Source: a virus | IMG/VR virus record: IMGVR_UViG_3300032070_000027 | Location: 1 to 25,611 of that record | Direction: 5' to 3' (one strand) | Length of the DNA: 25,611 nucleotides | In this document: positions 2,285-9,099 of the stretch, piece after piece | Position numbering within the stretch: position 1 is the stretch's first letter | How the letters are laid out: each line of letters begins with the position of its first letter | Position numbers and translations under genes: made by a program | Notes under the pieces: generated by a model | What the model was told of the DNA's origin: nothing | What the model saw: only the letters and a program-made list of their open reading frames with translations | Database searches by the model: none

Positions 2285-2968
2285 CTATATGACCCCCGTC
2301 ATGAGGTCCTCGACGGTGACCTCGACCTCGTTCTCGCTCCATGTTATGTCGCCCGTCCAGCCGTCCCAGAAGACGGCAAAGTCCGCGTCCACCGCCCCAT
2401 TCTTGCCGATCCGAGGGGTGAGCCGCTTTCCCTCGTAGATGTAATCGGTGAGATCCGTGTCGAAGTATTTCTCGCCGTTCAAGAATTTTAGGCTGCCAAA
2501 GGTCTGCTTTGTGCCCCCCTCATGATAGCCGCCCGTCACATAGGCAACCGACGGGATGGAGTTATTGCCGACGAGCGGGAGGTATGGCCTGCCCCCGAAG
2601 ACATAGGGCCGTGTCCCGAAGCGGCGCCAAAGATAGGCCGCGATGATATATCCCCCGTCGCCCGGATCGCCATTGTCGGCGACATGGACGTAAAGCCTCT
2701 TCGCCGCGGCGTCCCAGTACCAGCTCGAGGCCGTCGCGTGGCATTCGGCCGGCGTGTTCTTCTCCGCGAGTTCGACCGCGTTAGCCTTGACTCTGGACGG
2801 CTTGCCCTCATGCTCGCCGAACTTGTCGCAATAGGTGTGCGAGATCCACCAGGCGTTCGTGTTCGGCGCATCGGCTTGGGTCCAAGTATCGACGTCTATC
2901 CTGTGGGCGACCTCGATGTCGACGAGGACGACGCTGTCCTGGTTCACCTCGCCGGGTGCATAGGCCAT
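2285..2968 (-). CDS. Tail hub protein, N-terminal domain as separate gene (227 aa)
   Basis: 227 residues. The start is the ATG at 2968, which overlaps the distal tail gene's stop (TGATG). The longer open frame upstream is an out-of-frame shadow of that gene. The C-terminal ~100 residues have the beta pattern seen at the start of one-piece tail hub proteins: 'SIPSVAYVTGG', a FLNGEKYFD segment, YIYEGKRL and a closing 'VTVEDL'. The next gene begins with what normally follows this domain, so the two probably act together in the tail tip. Residues 1-100 are rich in tryptophan, tyrosine and charged residues and I do not recognise them. Confidence 0.6.
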   Translation of the reverse strand: MAYAPGEVNQDSVVLVDIEVAHRIDVDTWTQADAPNTNAWWISHTYCDKFGEHEGKPSRVKANAVELAEKNTPAECHATASSWYWDAAAKRLYVHVADNGDPGDGGYIIAAYLWRRFGTRPYVFGGRPYLPLVGNNSIPSVAYVTGGYHEGGTKQTFGSLKFLNGEKYFDTDLTDYIYEGKRLTPRIGKNGAVDADFAVFWDGWTGDITWSENEVEVTVEDLMTGVI

Positions 2969-3759
2969 CAGAGCTCCTCCCTGAACAGGAGGGTCGTCTC
3001 CCAGAGCCGACCGTCGACCATCGACGGGAAGGCGATGTACTCCAGGAAGTGGCCGTAGACCGTGCTGGCGATTTCGTCCGTCGTGTCGATGCAGATCCAG
3101 AGCGGCTTCTTTATCCCGCATTCCGTGTCGATGGCCGCGTAGGCCTGGGCGTCGGCAGCGCCGACGATGGTGATCGGCAGTTCGTAGACCCAGAAAACCG
3201 GCCGCTCCGTCGCCGATGCCTGGCCCCCGTCTGAATAGCTGATCACGGAGTCGCTCTCCGGCCATCTCTTCCACTGCGTCCTGTAGCTCCTCACCGGCTC
3301 GAAATAAGGACCGAGGTATGGATGCGAGGCCGAGAGATAAGTTATCGCGCCCCCGCCGGCGGACATCTTGATCCGCCACCATCGATAGGTCTCGGCCGCC
3401 GCCAGGAAGACGACGATCCGCTTGGCCGCGGCCATCGCCGCGGTGATCGTTATGACATTCTCATAGGTGGTGTGTTCAAGGGCCGTGGGGTCTGCGGCGT
3501 GGCCCCCGAGTTCAACCGTCATCCCCACCGTAAAGTTCATATTCTCCAGGACAAATGCCTGGACGGGCTTCGTCGCCCACGCGCTCCCGAGATCAGAAAT
3601 AATCTCGATGCCGGCGGCTACGCCTACGCTCCGCCAGTCCCAGGTCTTCCATCGGTTCTGCAGGTTCGAGACCGGGTAGTCGGCTGCCTCGGAGCTCGCC
3701 GTTACAGTCGCCGAATCGAAGTAGTTCAACCACATGAACCGGAGCTTTTTCACAGCCAT
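2968..3759 (-). CDS. Distal tail protein (Dit-like)
   Basis: 263 residues from the ATG at 3759, which overlaps the tape measure stop (TGATG); the longer open frame upstream is a shadow. The N-terminal region has a 'TASSEAADYPVSNLQ' segment followed by a tryptophan-rich WKTWDWRS. This is typical of phage tail proteins with a jelly-roll domain encoded right after the tape measure. The C-terminal half has LWICIDTTDE and ends 'GRLWETTLLFREEL'. By position (after the tape measure, before the hub) it is the distal tail protein that joins tube and hub. The role rests mainly on position plus this pattern. Confidence 0.65.
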   Translation of the reverse strand: MAVKKLRFMWLNYFDSATVTASSEAADYPVSNLQNRWKTWDWRSVGVAAGIEIISDLGSAWATKPVQAFVLENMNFTVGMTVELGGHAADPTALEHTTYENVITITAAMAAAKRIVVFLAAAETYRWWRIKMSAGGGAITYLSASHPYLGPYFEPVRSYRTQWKRWPESDSVISYSDGGQASATERPVFWVYELPITIVGAADAQAYAAIDTECGIKKPLWICIDTTDEIASTVYGHFLEYIAFPSMVDGRLWETTLLFREEL

Positions 3760-6700: not shown

Positions 6701-6881
6701 AGGCCTTCTTGAGTGCGTCGACGGCGAGTTGGCCGGCGGCGAACTGCTTCCAGAGCCCGCCGAGGGTCTTGTCGGACTTCCCCGCCCCCTTCTCAACTCC
6801 GTCGAGGGCCCGCTCCGTCTCGTTGAGCTGCTTCGGCGCGCCGTGGGTGTCCGCGTATACGTCGATCCTTACGTCAGGCAT
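3759..6881 (-). CDS. Tape measure protein
   Basis: 1040 residues, the longest gene in the window, placed directly after the tail assembly chaperone, which is the standard position. The N-terminal ~300 residues are helical with a GxG-rich region like other tape measure proteins. Residues ~550-760 are a highly charged coiled coil rich in Arg, Glu and Ala. The next ~130 residues are hydrophobic and Gly/Ala-rich (for example GIGTGIGGFISGLAAGVGAA), fitting the segment thought to reach the membrane during DNA entry. Its length sets tail length, so a long siphovirus tail is expected. The ATG at 6881 overlaps the end of the frameshifted chaperone by 8 bases. No peptidase or lysozyme domain is visible. 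Confidence 0.93.
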   Translation of the reverse strand: MPDVRIDVYADTHGAPKQLNETERALDGVEKGAGKSDKTLGGLWKQFAAGQLAVDALKKAYETLKGVGEAAIKGAIDEEKAENDLKAALEITGRTIEGNLKHYLDFAQAKMAVTTYTHEEIQATQTLLLQLTNLDQKGIDRATKGSMGLATTMGIDLHSATMMVTKAMEGNYMALGRVGIKVNETMTAEQKQAYVLERLDSLYQRSVKETDTFGGSLKQLKNSWGELLETAGTAVIKNEAVRDAIKDLKAWIDKVASSPDFQIWLKGAVESLVKAAEFAGKFAKALYDISIGVTIKAQKELNDTYAEFHKTIRVAIDGGRDWTAEMKAAKEAADKLKKPINETGTATGALTAEELKAIEVKKKLAEAAQAIISKYNPLRGAMADVLKQEEALTKAREAGTISAADYKAGMEGVAESLKATTEKLGGLKPTIVDLDKTFQALMATMDNLPLSAEEVAAAMSKEFEDLRDEMQKDFEDLAMKDLPAHLQNIPAASKDAADATKSVWQECSTVISDSMRDIASTIVGAFDIKGLFGAAPKAAKFDTSYYDDMVKAATSAYEKTRSLMEASSEATINAANEAYRAQELTISRAEEDQDRARSRHEQAEDRKYETQYERDKKAIENSKMTEAQKEAALDALERKFEAAKLAREIARENAKVARDRAREDARYARQEAEERKIERIRAAGLKKLLDLQNAHQADLDAIRVKEDTAREAQARAEERRQNSLWFKVKGIFATACENMATIFLTTMFKPVGDMIANLAKKLISKGGGSVADSLDGVGGKVKGLGATIGEFISGIGTGIGGFISGLAAGVGAAIVTLATAIASAATILAAAAPAFIVVGLIAVGIYATIAALKRLFASSGSGAGDGMGRVVERQDNQISLMTQIRDLTIDNRGQLEAMKKALWAISTAVQHSKDYLKSCADYLKTIASKGYLSEVVKYLKSMDKTIGKLTGAAAGAVSTQTQLMVVHGTRSDPEYIFRKSQMGGIGFGGQAPINLTIPFYLDGKKLDERMLRIANGRVEWLHSQYQRSNRLIPPRTIGGT

Positions 6882-7164
6882 CGGAGTCCTTCTTCGCTAT
6901 GTCCATCGCGTGTTTGTAGATCATGTTCATCTTCTCGAGGAAGAGCGGCCTCTCGGCCGGGGGGATTCCCAGGCCCCTCATCAGGTCCGGCATCAGCCCG
7001 AACTCCCTGACGAACTGGTTGACCGACTCGTTGAAGAACTCGTAAACCGCCAACGAGTGCTCGTCGAGCGGCGGCGGGTTCTGCTCCGGGCGGTCGCCCT
7101 TGCCTATCTGCCCCGGTTCGACCGCGTTGCCCCAGGTCCTCTCCCAAAGCAGATAGGCCCTCAA
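6874..7164 (-). CDS. Tail assembly chaperone, -1 frameshift extension (gpT-like)
   Basis: This 96-codon open frame has no start of its own with a ribosome site. It is reached by a -1 shift at the end of the 165-residue chaperone, on the heptamer at 7164-7170. The first codon after the shift is TTG (7164-7162). The fused product would be 165 + 96 = 261 residues. The extension has LRAYLLWERTW, a Pro-rich 'GDRPEQNPPPLDE' stretch and two helices ending DIAKKDSDA. This is the gpG/gpGT arrangement known from lambda: the short form and the rare fusion both coat the tape measure protein during tail assembly and are not in the mature virion. The frameshift is inferred from sequence and structure. Confidence 0.85.
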   Translation of the reverse strand: MRAYLLWERTWGNAVEPGQIGKGDRPEQNPPPLDEHSLAVYEFFNESVNQFVREFGLMPDLMRGLGIPPAERPLFLEKMNMIYKHAMDIAKKDSDA

Positions 7165-7170
7165 TTTTTT
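7102..7170 (-). promoter_or_regulatory. Programmed -1 ribosomal frameshift signal
   Basis: On the minus strand a slippery heptamer A AAA AAT (7170-7164) is followed by a 5-nt spacer (7163-7159, containing the zero-frame TGA) and then a perfect 10-bp stem. The stem's arms are 7158-7149 and 7111-7102 (GCCTATCTGC with GCAGATAGGC), with a 37-nt loop. Inside the loop, a 4-bp CGGT/ACCG mini-hairpin (7114-7117 with 7121-7124) could fold. Slippery site, 5-9-nt spacer and downstream stem is the textbook layout of a -1 frameshift signal. Confidence 0.85.
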
Positions 7171-7658
7171 CGGAAGTTCTCGTGGTTCCGTATGATCGTC
7201 AGCACTTCGATCCATAGGAATTGAAGATCCGGGGTCTTCTTCGAGGCGTCCACCGGCTCTTCCTCGCCCGGGTCGAATCCGGCCGGGGGGGCGGCCTCGG
7301 CGGGCTCGATGCGCCTCTTGACCTCCTCCCACATCAGCGCGTCCCTGAACCACGGCTTCATCTTCTCCTCTTCCGTGCAGGGGATCGGCTGGCCCCCGAG
7401 GGTGAGGTCCCACCCGATCACGTGCTGCATGATGACCGGGACGATCTTCTCGAACACCGGCCAGAATTCGGACACGTCCGTCTTCTCGAGCTTGAGTTTC
7501 TCGACCGAGGGGACGCCGGCGAACGCGAGGAAGCCCTCGAGCTGCCCCTTGCGGAAAAGCGGCCTCAGCTGGAGCCTGACGATCGGCGGGTCGATGATGT
7601 CCGTCTCGAGTTCGAACCCCTCCCAGATCGACGGACTCGCGAATTTCAGTTCACCCAT
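7161..7658 (-). CDS. Tail assembly chaperone (gpG-like)
   Basis: 165 residues with a very strong ribosome site (AGGAGG, 7 bases before the ATG at 7658). It sits between the major tail tube gene and the tape measure gene, the usual place for the tail assembly chaperone. The protein is acidic and mostly helical, with 'EFWPVFEKIVPVIMQHVIG' mid-protein and a low-complexity Glu/Pro/Ala stretch (about residues 117-140). It ends FRKN just before TGA at 7161-7163. The last codons form the slippery sequence that allows a -1 shift into the downstream extension. The role is inferred from position and the frameshift signal rather than from a sequence family match. Confidence 0.85.
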   Translation of the reverse strand: MGELKFASPSIWEGFELETDIIDPPIVRLQLRPLFRKGQLEGFLAFAGVPSVEKLKLEKTDVSEFWPVFEKIVPVIMQHVIGWDLTLGGQPIPCTEEEKMKPWFRDALMWEEVKRRIEPAEAAPPAGFDPGEEEPVDASKKTPDLQFLWIEVLTIIRNHENFRKN

Positions 7659-7722: not shown

Positions 7723-9099
7723 TTATGCCAGGTAGTCCGTCGCCTGGAGGTTGACGAGCTCGATATAGGGCCGCACGTAGGCGGTCATGCCCGCCGGGCC
7801 CGTCGCGGCCTGCTCCGCCTCCAGCGTGATCACCGTGCTCATCGCGTCGGCGAGCGGGGCCGCCGGGGGCTCCACGAACTTCAACCGCGGGAACCCGAGG
7901 ACGAGGCTGTATTTGACCCCGCCCCCCGCGTTGATGGTCGAGGTGAACGTCACGGTGAGCTTCTGGGCCGCCTTGGCGTTGAACGACGCGAGGTACGCGA
8001 GGTTGGCCGGCGACGTCCGCGGGATCGTGAGCTTGACGCTCATCTTGAACGCCTTGGCGTCCTGCGCCTGGATGATCCCCTCGTCCCCCGCCGCGTGATA
8101 GGCGTCGAGAGTCCTCTCGTAGTCAATGTCGACGTCGCTTATCTGCAGAACGTCCCCGATCGCCAGGGCCCCGCCCCCCTGGAGGTTCATCCAGATCGCC
8201 CCATGCCCGAACCTGACGATGTTCGCCGTGTCCACATAGGTCAGGGCGTCCATCTCCGTCGCCCCGTTGACGCCCCCGTCGACGCAGTGGTTCCCCCTGA
8301 GCGATATCGTGCCCTTGAGCAATCCTTTGGCGATCTTCAGCGAGAGCTTAAACGGTACGCATGACGGGACCTCCCGGACCACTCCGGGACGTTCGACGGC
8401 GAACGTGAAGAACTTGTCGATATAGTCGGCCCAGGTGAAGACGTGCTTCATGGCCACCCCGACGCCCGTCGAATCGGACACGTAATTCAGGGATCCCGTG
8501 AGGTCCGTCTCCGCATAGCCGCAAAGGACCGAGATATCGAGCGCATGGTTCGTCCCCGTCGCGAACAGGAGGGAACACGTGGTGGTAGTGACCCCGAGAG
8601 TGAACTTGTTGGTCGTGGGGTTGTAGGTGCAGGCCCAAACTAGGGTCTTACCCTGGATGGCATTGAGGGCGAGCGCGATGGCCGTGGCTAAGGTCGCGCC
8701 CGTGTATGTGCCTGCCGGCACAGTCGCCGTTAATTCGGGGGGTGTGTCTGAGCCCTCTTTCACGTTGACCTTGTCGTTGACCCCCGTTACGACCTCGAAC
8801 ACGGGCGTCGGGGCCCCGGCCACGCCGAAGAGGCCCGCGACGAGGGACCCCAGAGGGCCGGGGTCGTACCGCATCGCGAACTCGGGCGAGAAGTCGACCG
8901 GCTCGATGAGCCCCAGATCTCCGTCGAGCGGCATTATGGCATCGATGTCGTCGCGGGCCTCATAGGCCCGCTTGGGGGACGGGTTCCCGTCGTTCTCAAT
9001 CAGGATCCCTTTCACGATCGGAAGGGCCGTGCCCCAAGTGCCCCCCTTTATCGCGCCTGCCGCGTAGAATCTCTTGCTTGGATAGATTGGTGTTGTCAT
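7723..9099 (-). CDS. Major tail tube protein
   Basis: 458 residues; the ATG at 9099 overlaps the stop of the preceding small gene (ATGA). It is beta-rich with few charged clusters and begins MTTPIYPSKRFYAAG. It has 'FSPEFAMRYDPGPLGSLV' around residue 70 and a C-terminal beta part with 'KLTVTFTSTINAGGG'. Residues ~105-215 look like an inserted domain with 'PAGTYTGATLATAIALALN' and 'YNPTTNKFTLGV', a pattern that also occurs in other phage tail and baseplate proteins. Length and position (after connector and terminator genes, before the chaperone) fit the tube protein that polymerises around the tape measure. It is longer than simple tube proteins, consistent with the insertion. Confidence 0.75.
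   Translation of the reverse strand: MTTPIYPSKRFYAAGAIKGGTWGTALPIVKGILIENDGNPSPKRAYEARDDIDAIMPLDGDLGLIEPVDFSPEFAMRYDPGPLGSLVAGLFGVAGAPTPVFEVVTGVNDKVNVKEGSDTPPELTATVPAGTYTGATLATAIALALNAIQGKTLVWACTYNPTTNKFTLGVTTTTCSLLFATGTNHALDISVLCGYAETDLTGSLNYVSDSTGVGVAMKHVFTWADYIDKFFTFAVERPGVVREVPSCVPFKLSLKIAKGLLKGTISLRGNHCVDGGVNGATEMDALTYVDTANIVRFGHGAIWMNLQGGGALAIGDVLQISDVDIDYERTLDAYHAAGDEGIIQAQDAKAFKMSVKLTIPRTSPANLAYLASFNAKAAQKLTVTFTSTINAGGGVKYSLVLGFPRLKFVEPPAAPLADAMSTVITLEAEQAATGPAGMTAYVRPYIELVNLQATDYLA

Follow-up and report, generated by a model that had tools for sequence, protein, structure and literature searches.

The window, which is the whole stretch of DNA analysed here (25,611 nucleotides, IMG/VR virus record IMGVR_UViG_3300032070_000027), is a 25.6-kb virus record with a GC content of 59%. 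Its minus strand carries a tailed-phage structural module with the large terminase (phrog_2), the major capsid protein (phrog_212) and the tape measure (phrog_305). The order of major tail protein (assigned by position), G, T and tape measure is present in the window and is kept in its relatives. A family match was sought for the 458-aa putative major tail protein and none was obtained. G is preceded by a ribosome-binding site, AGGAGGT, at 7670-7664. The coordinates are collected in Table 1. Elsewhere on the minus strand, a called 365-aa ORF (3382-2285) overlaps the ORF at 3825-2968 by more than 400 nt (region 2968-3382); its likelier start is the ATG at about 2971, in an ATGA overlap.

Table 1. 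Features of the predicted G/T frameshift region and its neighbouring genes (positions in the window)
Feature	Position	Strand	Basis
Tape measure protein, 1040 aa	3759..6881	-	phrog_305, E 4e-11
T extension, -1 frame, 96 codons + stop	6874..7164	-	sequence; homologous T domains
Hairpin 3' arm	7102..7116	-	fold z, compensatory changes
Hairpin 5' arm (10 perfect outer bp, then 5 inner bp of which three are G.U)	7144..7158	-	fold z, compensatory changes
Zero-frame stop TGA, adjoining heptamer 3'	7161..7163	-	sequence; TGA/TAG at the same place in homologues
Slippery heptamer A_AAA_AAT	7164..7170	-	sequence; A_AAA_AAT/A_AAA_AAC at the same place in 9 of 10 other contigs
G, putative tail assembly chaperone, zero frame, 165 aa, ends NFRKN-stop	7161..7658	-	sequence, gene position
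Putative major tail protein, 458 aa	7723..9099	-	position / gene order only

The last codons of G in the zero frame are CGA AAA AAT TGA. A heptamer of the form X_XXY_YYZ, A_AAA_AAT, thus lies in the zero frame at the end of the first ORF. No other all-A slippery heptamer stands in phase in the 15 window genes tested (4,865 codons). A second AAAAAAT run is found outside the genes tested, at 12076-12070 on the minus strand, shortly before the capsid gene begins (12068). The 5-nt spacer between heptamer and hairpin, TGAGG, contains the zero-frame stop. Open from 7164 to 6877, the -1 frame (stop at 6876-6874) encodes a domain that aligns with homologous T domains over its 96 codons, and overlaps the tape-measure ATG (6881) by 8 nt. 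The predicted products are a 165-aa G and a 261-aa G-T fusion. The initial annotation had described the heptamer at the end of the chaperone, the stop inside the spacer, a -1 frame open for 96 further codons to the tape measure, and a 261-residue fusion. All of its coordinates, the phase of the heptamer and the fusion length were reproduced from the sequence, and only the stem had to be extended.

That stem had been given as a perfect 10-bp helix with a 5-nt spacer and a 37-nt loop. The arms GCCTATCTGC (7158-7149) and GCAGATAGGC (7111-7102) are indeed perfect complements flanking a 37-nt loop. The helix continues inward for five more pairs (7148-7144 with 7116-7112; three G.U and two G-C), so that the full hairpin has 15 bp and a 27-nt loop and begins 5 nt past the heptamer. 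Structures at a distance of 5 to 9 nt are usual for -1 shifts, but tailed phages do not universally have them. A 74-nt stretch is predicted to fold at -36.1 kcal/mol (z -4.4), a stability that none of 200 dinucleotide shuffles attains, and a 65-nt stretch at -34.5 kcal/mol (z -5.9). Synonymous recodings of the -1 frame that followed the codon usage of the window never folded as well (0 of 500), and when T was recoded in this way all 12 of 12 core pairs formed in 0.08% of trials. The loop (GCGGTCG, 7125-7119) could form a pseudoknot by pairing over 7 bp with the strand that follows the hairpin (CGACCGC, 7096-7090, both on the minus strand). A search for a conserved second stem of an H-type pseudoknot in L002, L006, L008 and L010 gave no match of a length that beats chance. 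The pseudoknot stimulator was rejected, as the 7-bp candidate of the window is not kept in the relatives.

No relatives of G were found among 50,697 phage records or in one genome per prokaryote species. Ten other virus contigs gave homologous junctions (L002, L005, L006, L008, L009, L010, L017, L018, L019 and L021). L002 was reached by direct search and the rest via the capsid protein and T alignment. Homologues lacking both the heptamer and an open -1 frame had been named as evidence that would speak against the frameshift. Nine of the ten contigs, all but L005, keep the heptamer, the adjacent stop and an open, homologous -1 frame: G ends in K-N-stop on A_AAA_AAY with TGA or TAG immediately after, the -1 reading continues into a homologous T domain, and 5 to 7 nt separate the heptamer from a hairpin. 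These nine contigs and the window represent eight distinct junctions. T is 30 to 88% identical to the homologous domains; outside the nearest relative the identity is 21 to 45% for G and 28 to 45% for T. The L.W, G and NPP residues are invariant in the T domains. The G alignment has eight invariant columns, two of which hold the terminal K and N that the heptamer encodes.

L002 is a close contig (G 86% and T 88% identical) in which the heptamer, the stop and both 10-bp arms are unchanged. Its inner stem has two one-sided changes (U.G to C-G and G-C to G.U) and both keep the helix. In L018 the loop is 30 nt longer, yet a 12-bp stem is found at the homologous codons. L017 and L021 have the 5' arm in the same place, paired with a strand that lies further downstream and in another register. 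The hairpins of L006 and L008 are no more stable than shuffled sequences (z -0.3 and -0.5).

The initial annotation had proposed a comparison of the stem among homologues for compensatory changes. For this comparison, six in-register junctions were aligned without gaps and with the loop removed. Two-sided compensatory changes were found at three of the 15 pairs. In the stem, 86.7% of the cells are paired (79.1 +/- 1.9% in shuffled alignments), and when the partner is shifted by one to three columns the pairing drops to 34-47%. The covariation score is 0.293 compared to 0.128 +/- 0.040, a value that 0 of 500 shuffles reach. The covariation is good but not overwhelming support for the stem, since the alignment is small, with six sequences, and the shuffle control takes no account of their relatedness. 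A separate line of support comes from the synonymous-codon tests, which give p of approximately 4e-6 for five lineages combined, the lineages being not fully independent.

These tests also bear on the idea that the heptamer acts alone and that protein conservation (YLxW and EIGxG) produced the stem incidentally, which is a variant of the frameshift reading rather than an exclusive alternative. The arms do encode conserved residues, the pairing in L006 and L019 falls in or close to the range expected by chance from synonymous codons (15% and 6%), and some tailed-phage shifts seem to operate without stimulators (review, PMC5009743). Against it, the pairing in the window, L002, L010 and L018 is reached in just 0.04 to 1.6% of synonymous recodings. 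The Ile codon opposite TAT is ATA in every in-register homologue with Ile at that site, while ATA makes up only 5 to 19% of the Ile codons in those contigs. Three pairs are also altered on both sides. We consider a by-product stem unlikely.

Based on these comparisons, the locus very probably carries a signal for programmed -1 ribosomal frameshifting of the G/GT type known from phage lambda. The gpG/gpGT reading had been proposed in the initial annotation, and it gains support from the conserved heptamer, stop and -1 frame and from the compensatory changes in the stem. Most ribosomes would read AAA AAT and terminate at the adjoining TGA, giving the 165-aa G. The hairpin 5 nt downstream would hold the ribosome with AAA AAT in the P and A sites. 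The Lys and Asn tRNAs would then slip in tandem, from AAA AAT to AAA AAA, before translocation puts the stop codon in the A site; a minority of ribosomes would re-pair one base back, bypass the stop and so produce the 261-aa G-T. As in lambda, G would coat the tape-measure protein, the T part would recruit the major tail protein, and the slip would set the ratio of G to G-T. We infer that slippage takes place, and its efficiency and the protein functions are likewise inferred. In E. coli, which may not be the host, A_AAA_AAC is reported to shift far less readily than A_AAA_AAG (PMC5009743), so the efficiency may be low. The weak hairpins of L006 and L008, the other register in L017 and L021 and the missing signal in L005 count against the frameshift reading.

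T could instead be a separate gene with its own start near the G stop, for example the TTG at 7164 overlapping TGA, and no frameshift would be needed. The -1 frame TTG of the window does overlap the stop (T-TGA), a layout known in coupled genes. The codon at this place is TTG in the window, L002 and L017, CTG in L006, L008, L009, L010 and L021, and TTA in L018 and L019. A restart is very improbable because this stop-overlapping codon varies among the homologues. A good ribosome-binding site is absent ahead of the TTG, the heptamer and the stem would be left unexplained, and L005 has G and T as one chain.

In transcriptional slippage, RNA polymerase would slip on the A6 run and produce mRNAs that gain or lose one base. 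Polymerase slippage usually requires runs longer than six A's, and the run is only six in every homologue. The phase for tandem slippage, A_AAA_AAY, is constant and the hairpin is found at the spacing of a ribosomal shift. Runs of A are known polymerase slip sites and both routes occur in nature (PMC5009743). Because of the short run and the constant phase, we give polymerase slippage as small a chance as the separate start of T, and ribosomal frameshifting remains the preferred reading.

G is putatively a tail chaperone by its place in the gene order, by the G/T architecture and by the weak profile match of one homologue. The window G and T gave no match to the chaperone profiles of PHROGs and Pfam. 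G of L010 shows a weak match to phrog_569 (E 3.5e-4) and to phrog_313 'Tail assembly chaperone' (E 0.02), over 29 to 46 residues. A fold search with the predicted G structure (pLDDT 73) found no significant solved or viral match, and a profile search of G against solved structures gave chance matches only. Weak Pfam hits of T (TANGO6_N, E 0.014) are below the curated cut-off and were dismissed. G and T constitute a diverged, unannotated putative chaperone family that is absent from Pfam and barely touched by PHROGs. Their roles are suggested to be as in lambda by the same gene order, G/T layout and single weak profile match.

L005 is the exception among the relatives. It has neither the heptamer nor the stop: relative to L006 there is a net 20-nt deletion that also removed the spacer, and G and T are joined in one open frame of 244 aa (8111-8845). 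A remnant of the stem, CTATCTC facing GAGATAG, is still present. A slippery site plausibly placed for a G-sized product was sought in L005 and not found; the heptamers in frame there are AAAAAAA (8278) and AAAGGGA (8608). The neighbouring putative tail gene (464 codons) and the tape-measure frame (777 codons) are open. L005 is a single metagenome contig and the 20-nt deletion may be an assembly or sequencing fault. It is possible, although we hold this only tentatively, that L005 represents a natural loss of the programmed frameshift, in which G-T is always made as one 244-aa protein and the hairpin is left as a relic. If this is true and the L005 phage is viable, its tail module either obtains G in some other way or can work without the G to G-T ratio that is regarded as essential in lambda. 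Judged from its sequence, the L005 fusion still supports the existence of a G-T protein.

The heptamer of phage lambda is G_GGA_AAG. The window differs from lambda in its A_AAA_AAT heptamer, in the stop right after it, in the strong conserved hairpin and in a G and T that have no match to known chaperone profiles. It resembles lambda gpG/gpGT in having a short chaperone and a -1 extended form just before the tape-measure gene, the slip adding the T part (PMC5009743). Lambda produces the two forms at a ratio of about 30 to 1, the short one binding the tape measure and the T part binding the tail-tube protein (PMC5009743). Tail-chaperone frameshifting is widespread and the lambda mechanism is widely conserved (PMC5009743); 2,397 annotated cases have been reported among 3,679 SEA-PHAGES genomes (PMC10885494). 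The distance from heptamer to stop averages 26 nt in the SEA-PHAGES training set (PMC10885494). A heptamer abutting the stop is less usual and has been published for the Acinetobacter phages Loki and IME_AB3 (PMC5313236).

In IME_AB3 (gp12/gp13) we found A_AAA_AAC TGA with a -1 frame open for 112 codons, an arrangement like that of the window. The downstream predicted fold is weaker in IME_AB3 (-19.7 kcal/mol for 80 nt), and the chaperone and T sequences of Loki and IME_AB3 are unrelated to those of the window (profile comparison probability 1-2%). Burkholderia phage KL1 (L044, 12446-12540) also has a heptamer abutting TGA and is annotated as a joined gene. Its heptamer is a different one (G_GGA_AAC), its strong hairpin is about 30 nt downstream, and its chaperone belongs to the IME_AB3 family and not to that of the window. 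The haloarchaeal virus HCTV-2 has an A_AAA_AAC shift site in its tail chaperone gene (PMC5009743); its host is archaeal and the likeness rests on the published description. The frameshift signal is well supported and of a known kind, and the chaperone proteins are not detectably related to those of Loki, IME_AB3 and KL1.

With this locus, the known G/GT frameshift systems gain a diverged and unannotated family of tail chaperones. Clear evolutionary support is also provided for the stimulatory hairpin; in tailed phages such an element is frequently absent or has gone untested. For annotation, the predicted 165-aa and 261-aa products should be treated as one gene. The in-frame variant in L005 offers a natural test of whether a ratio of the two forms is always needed.
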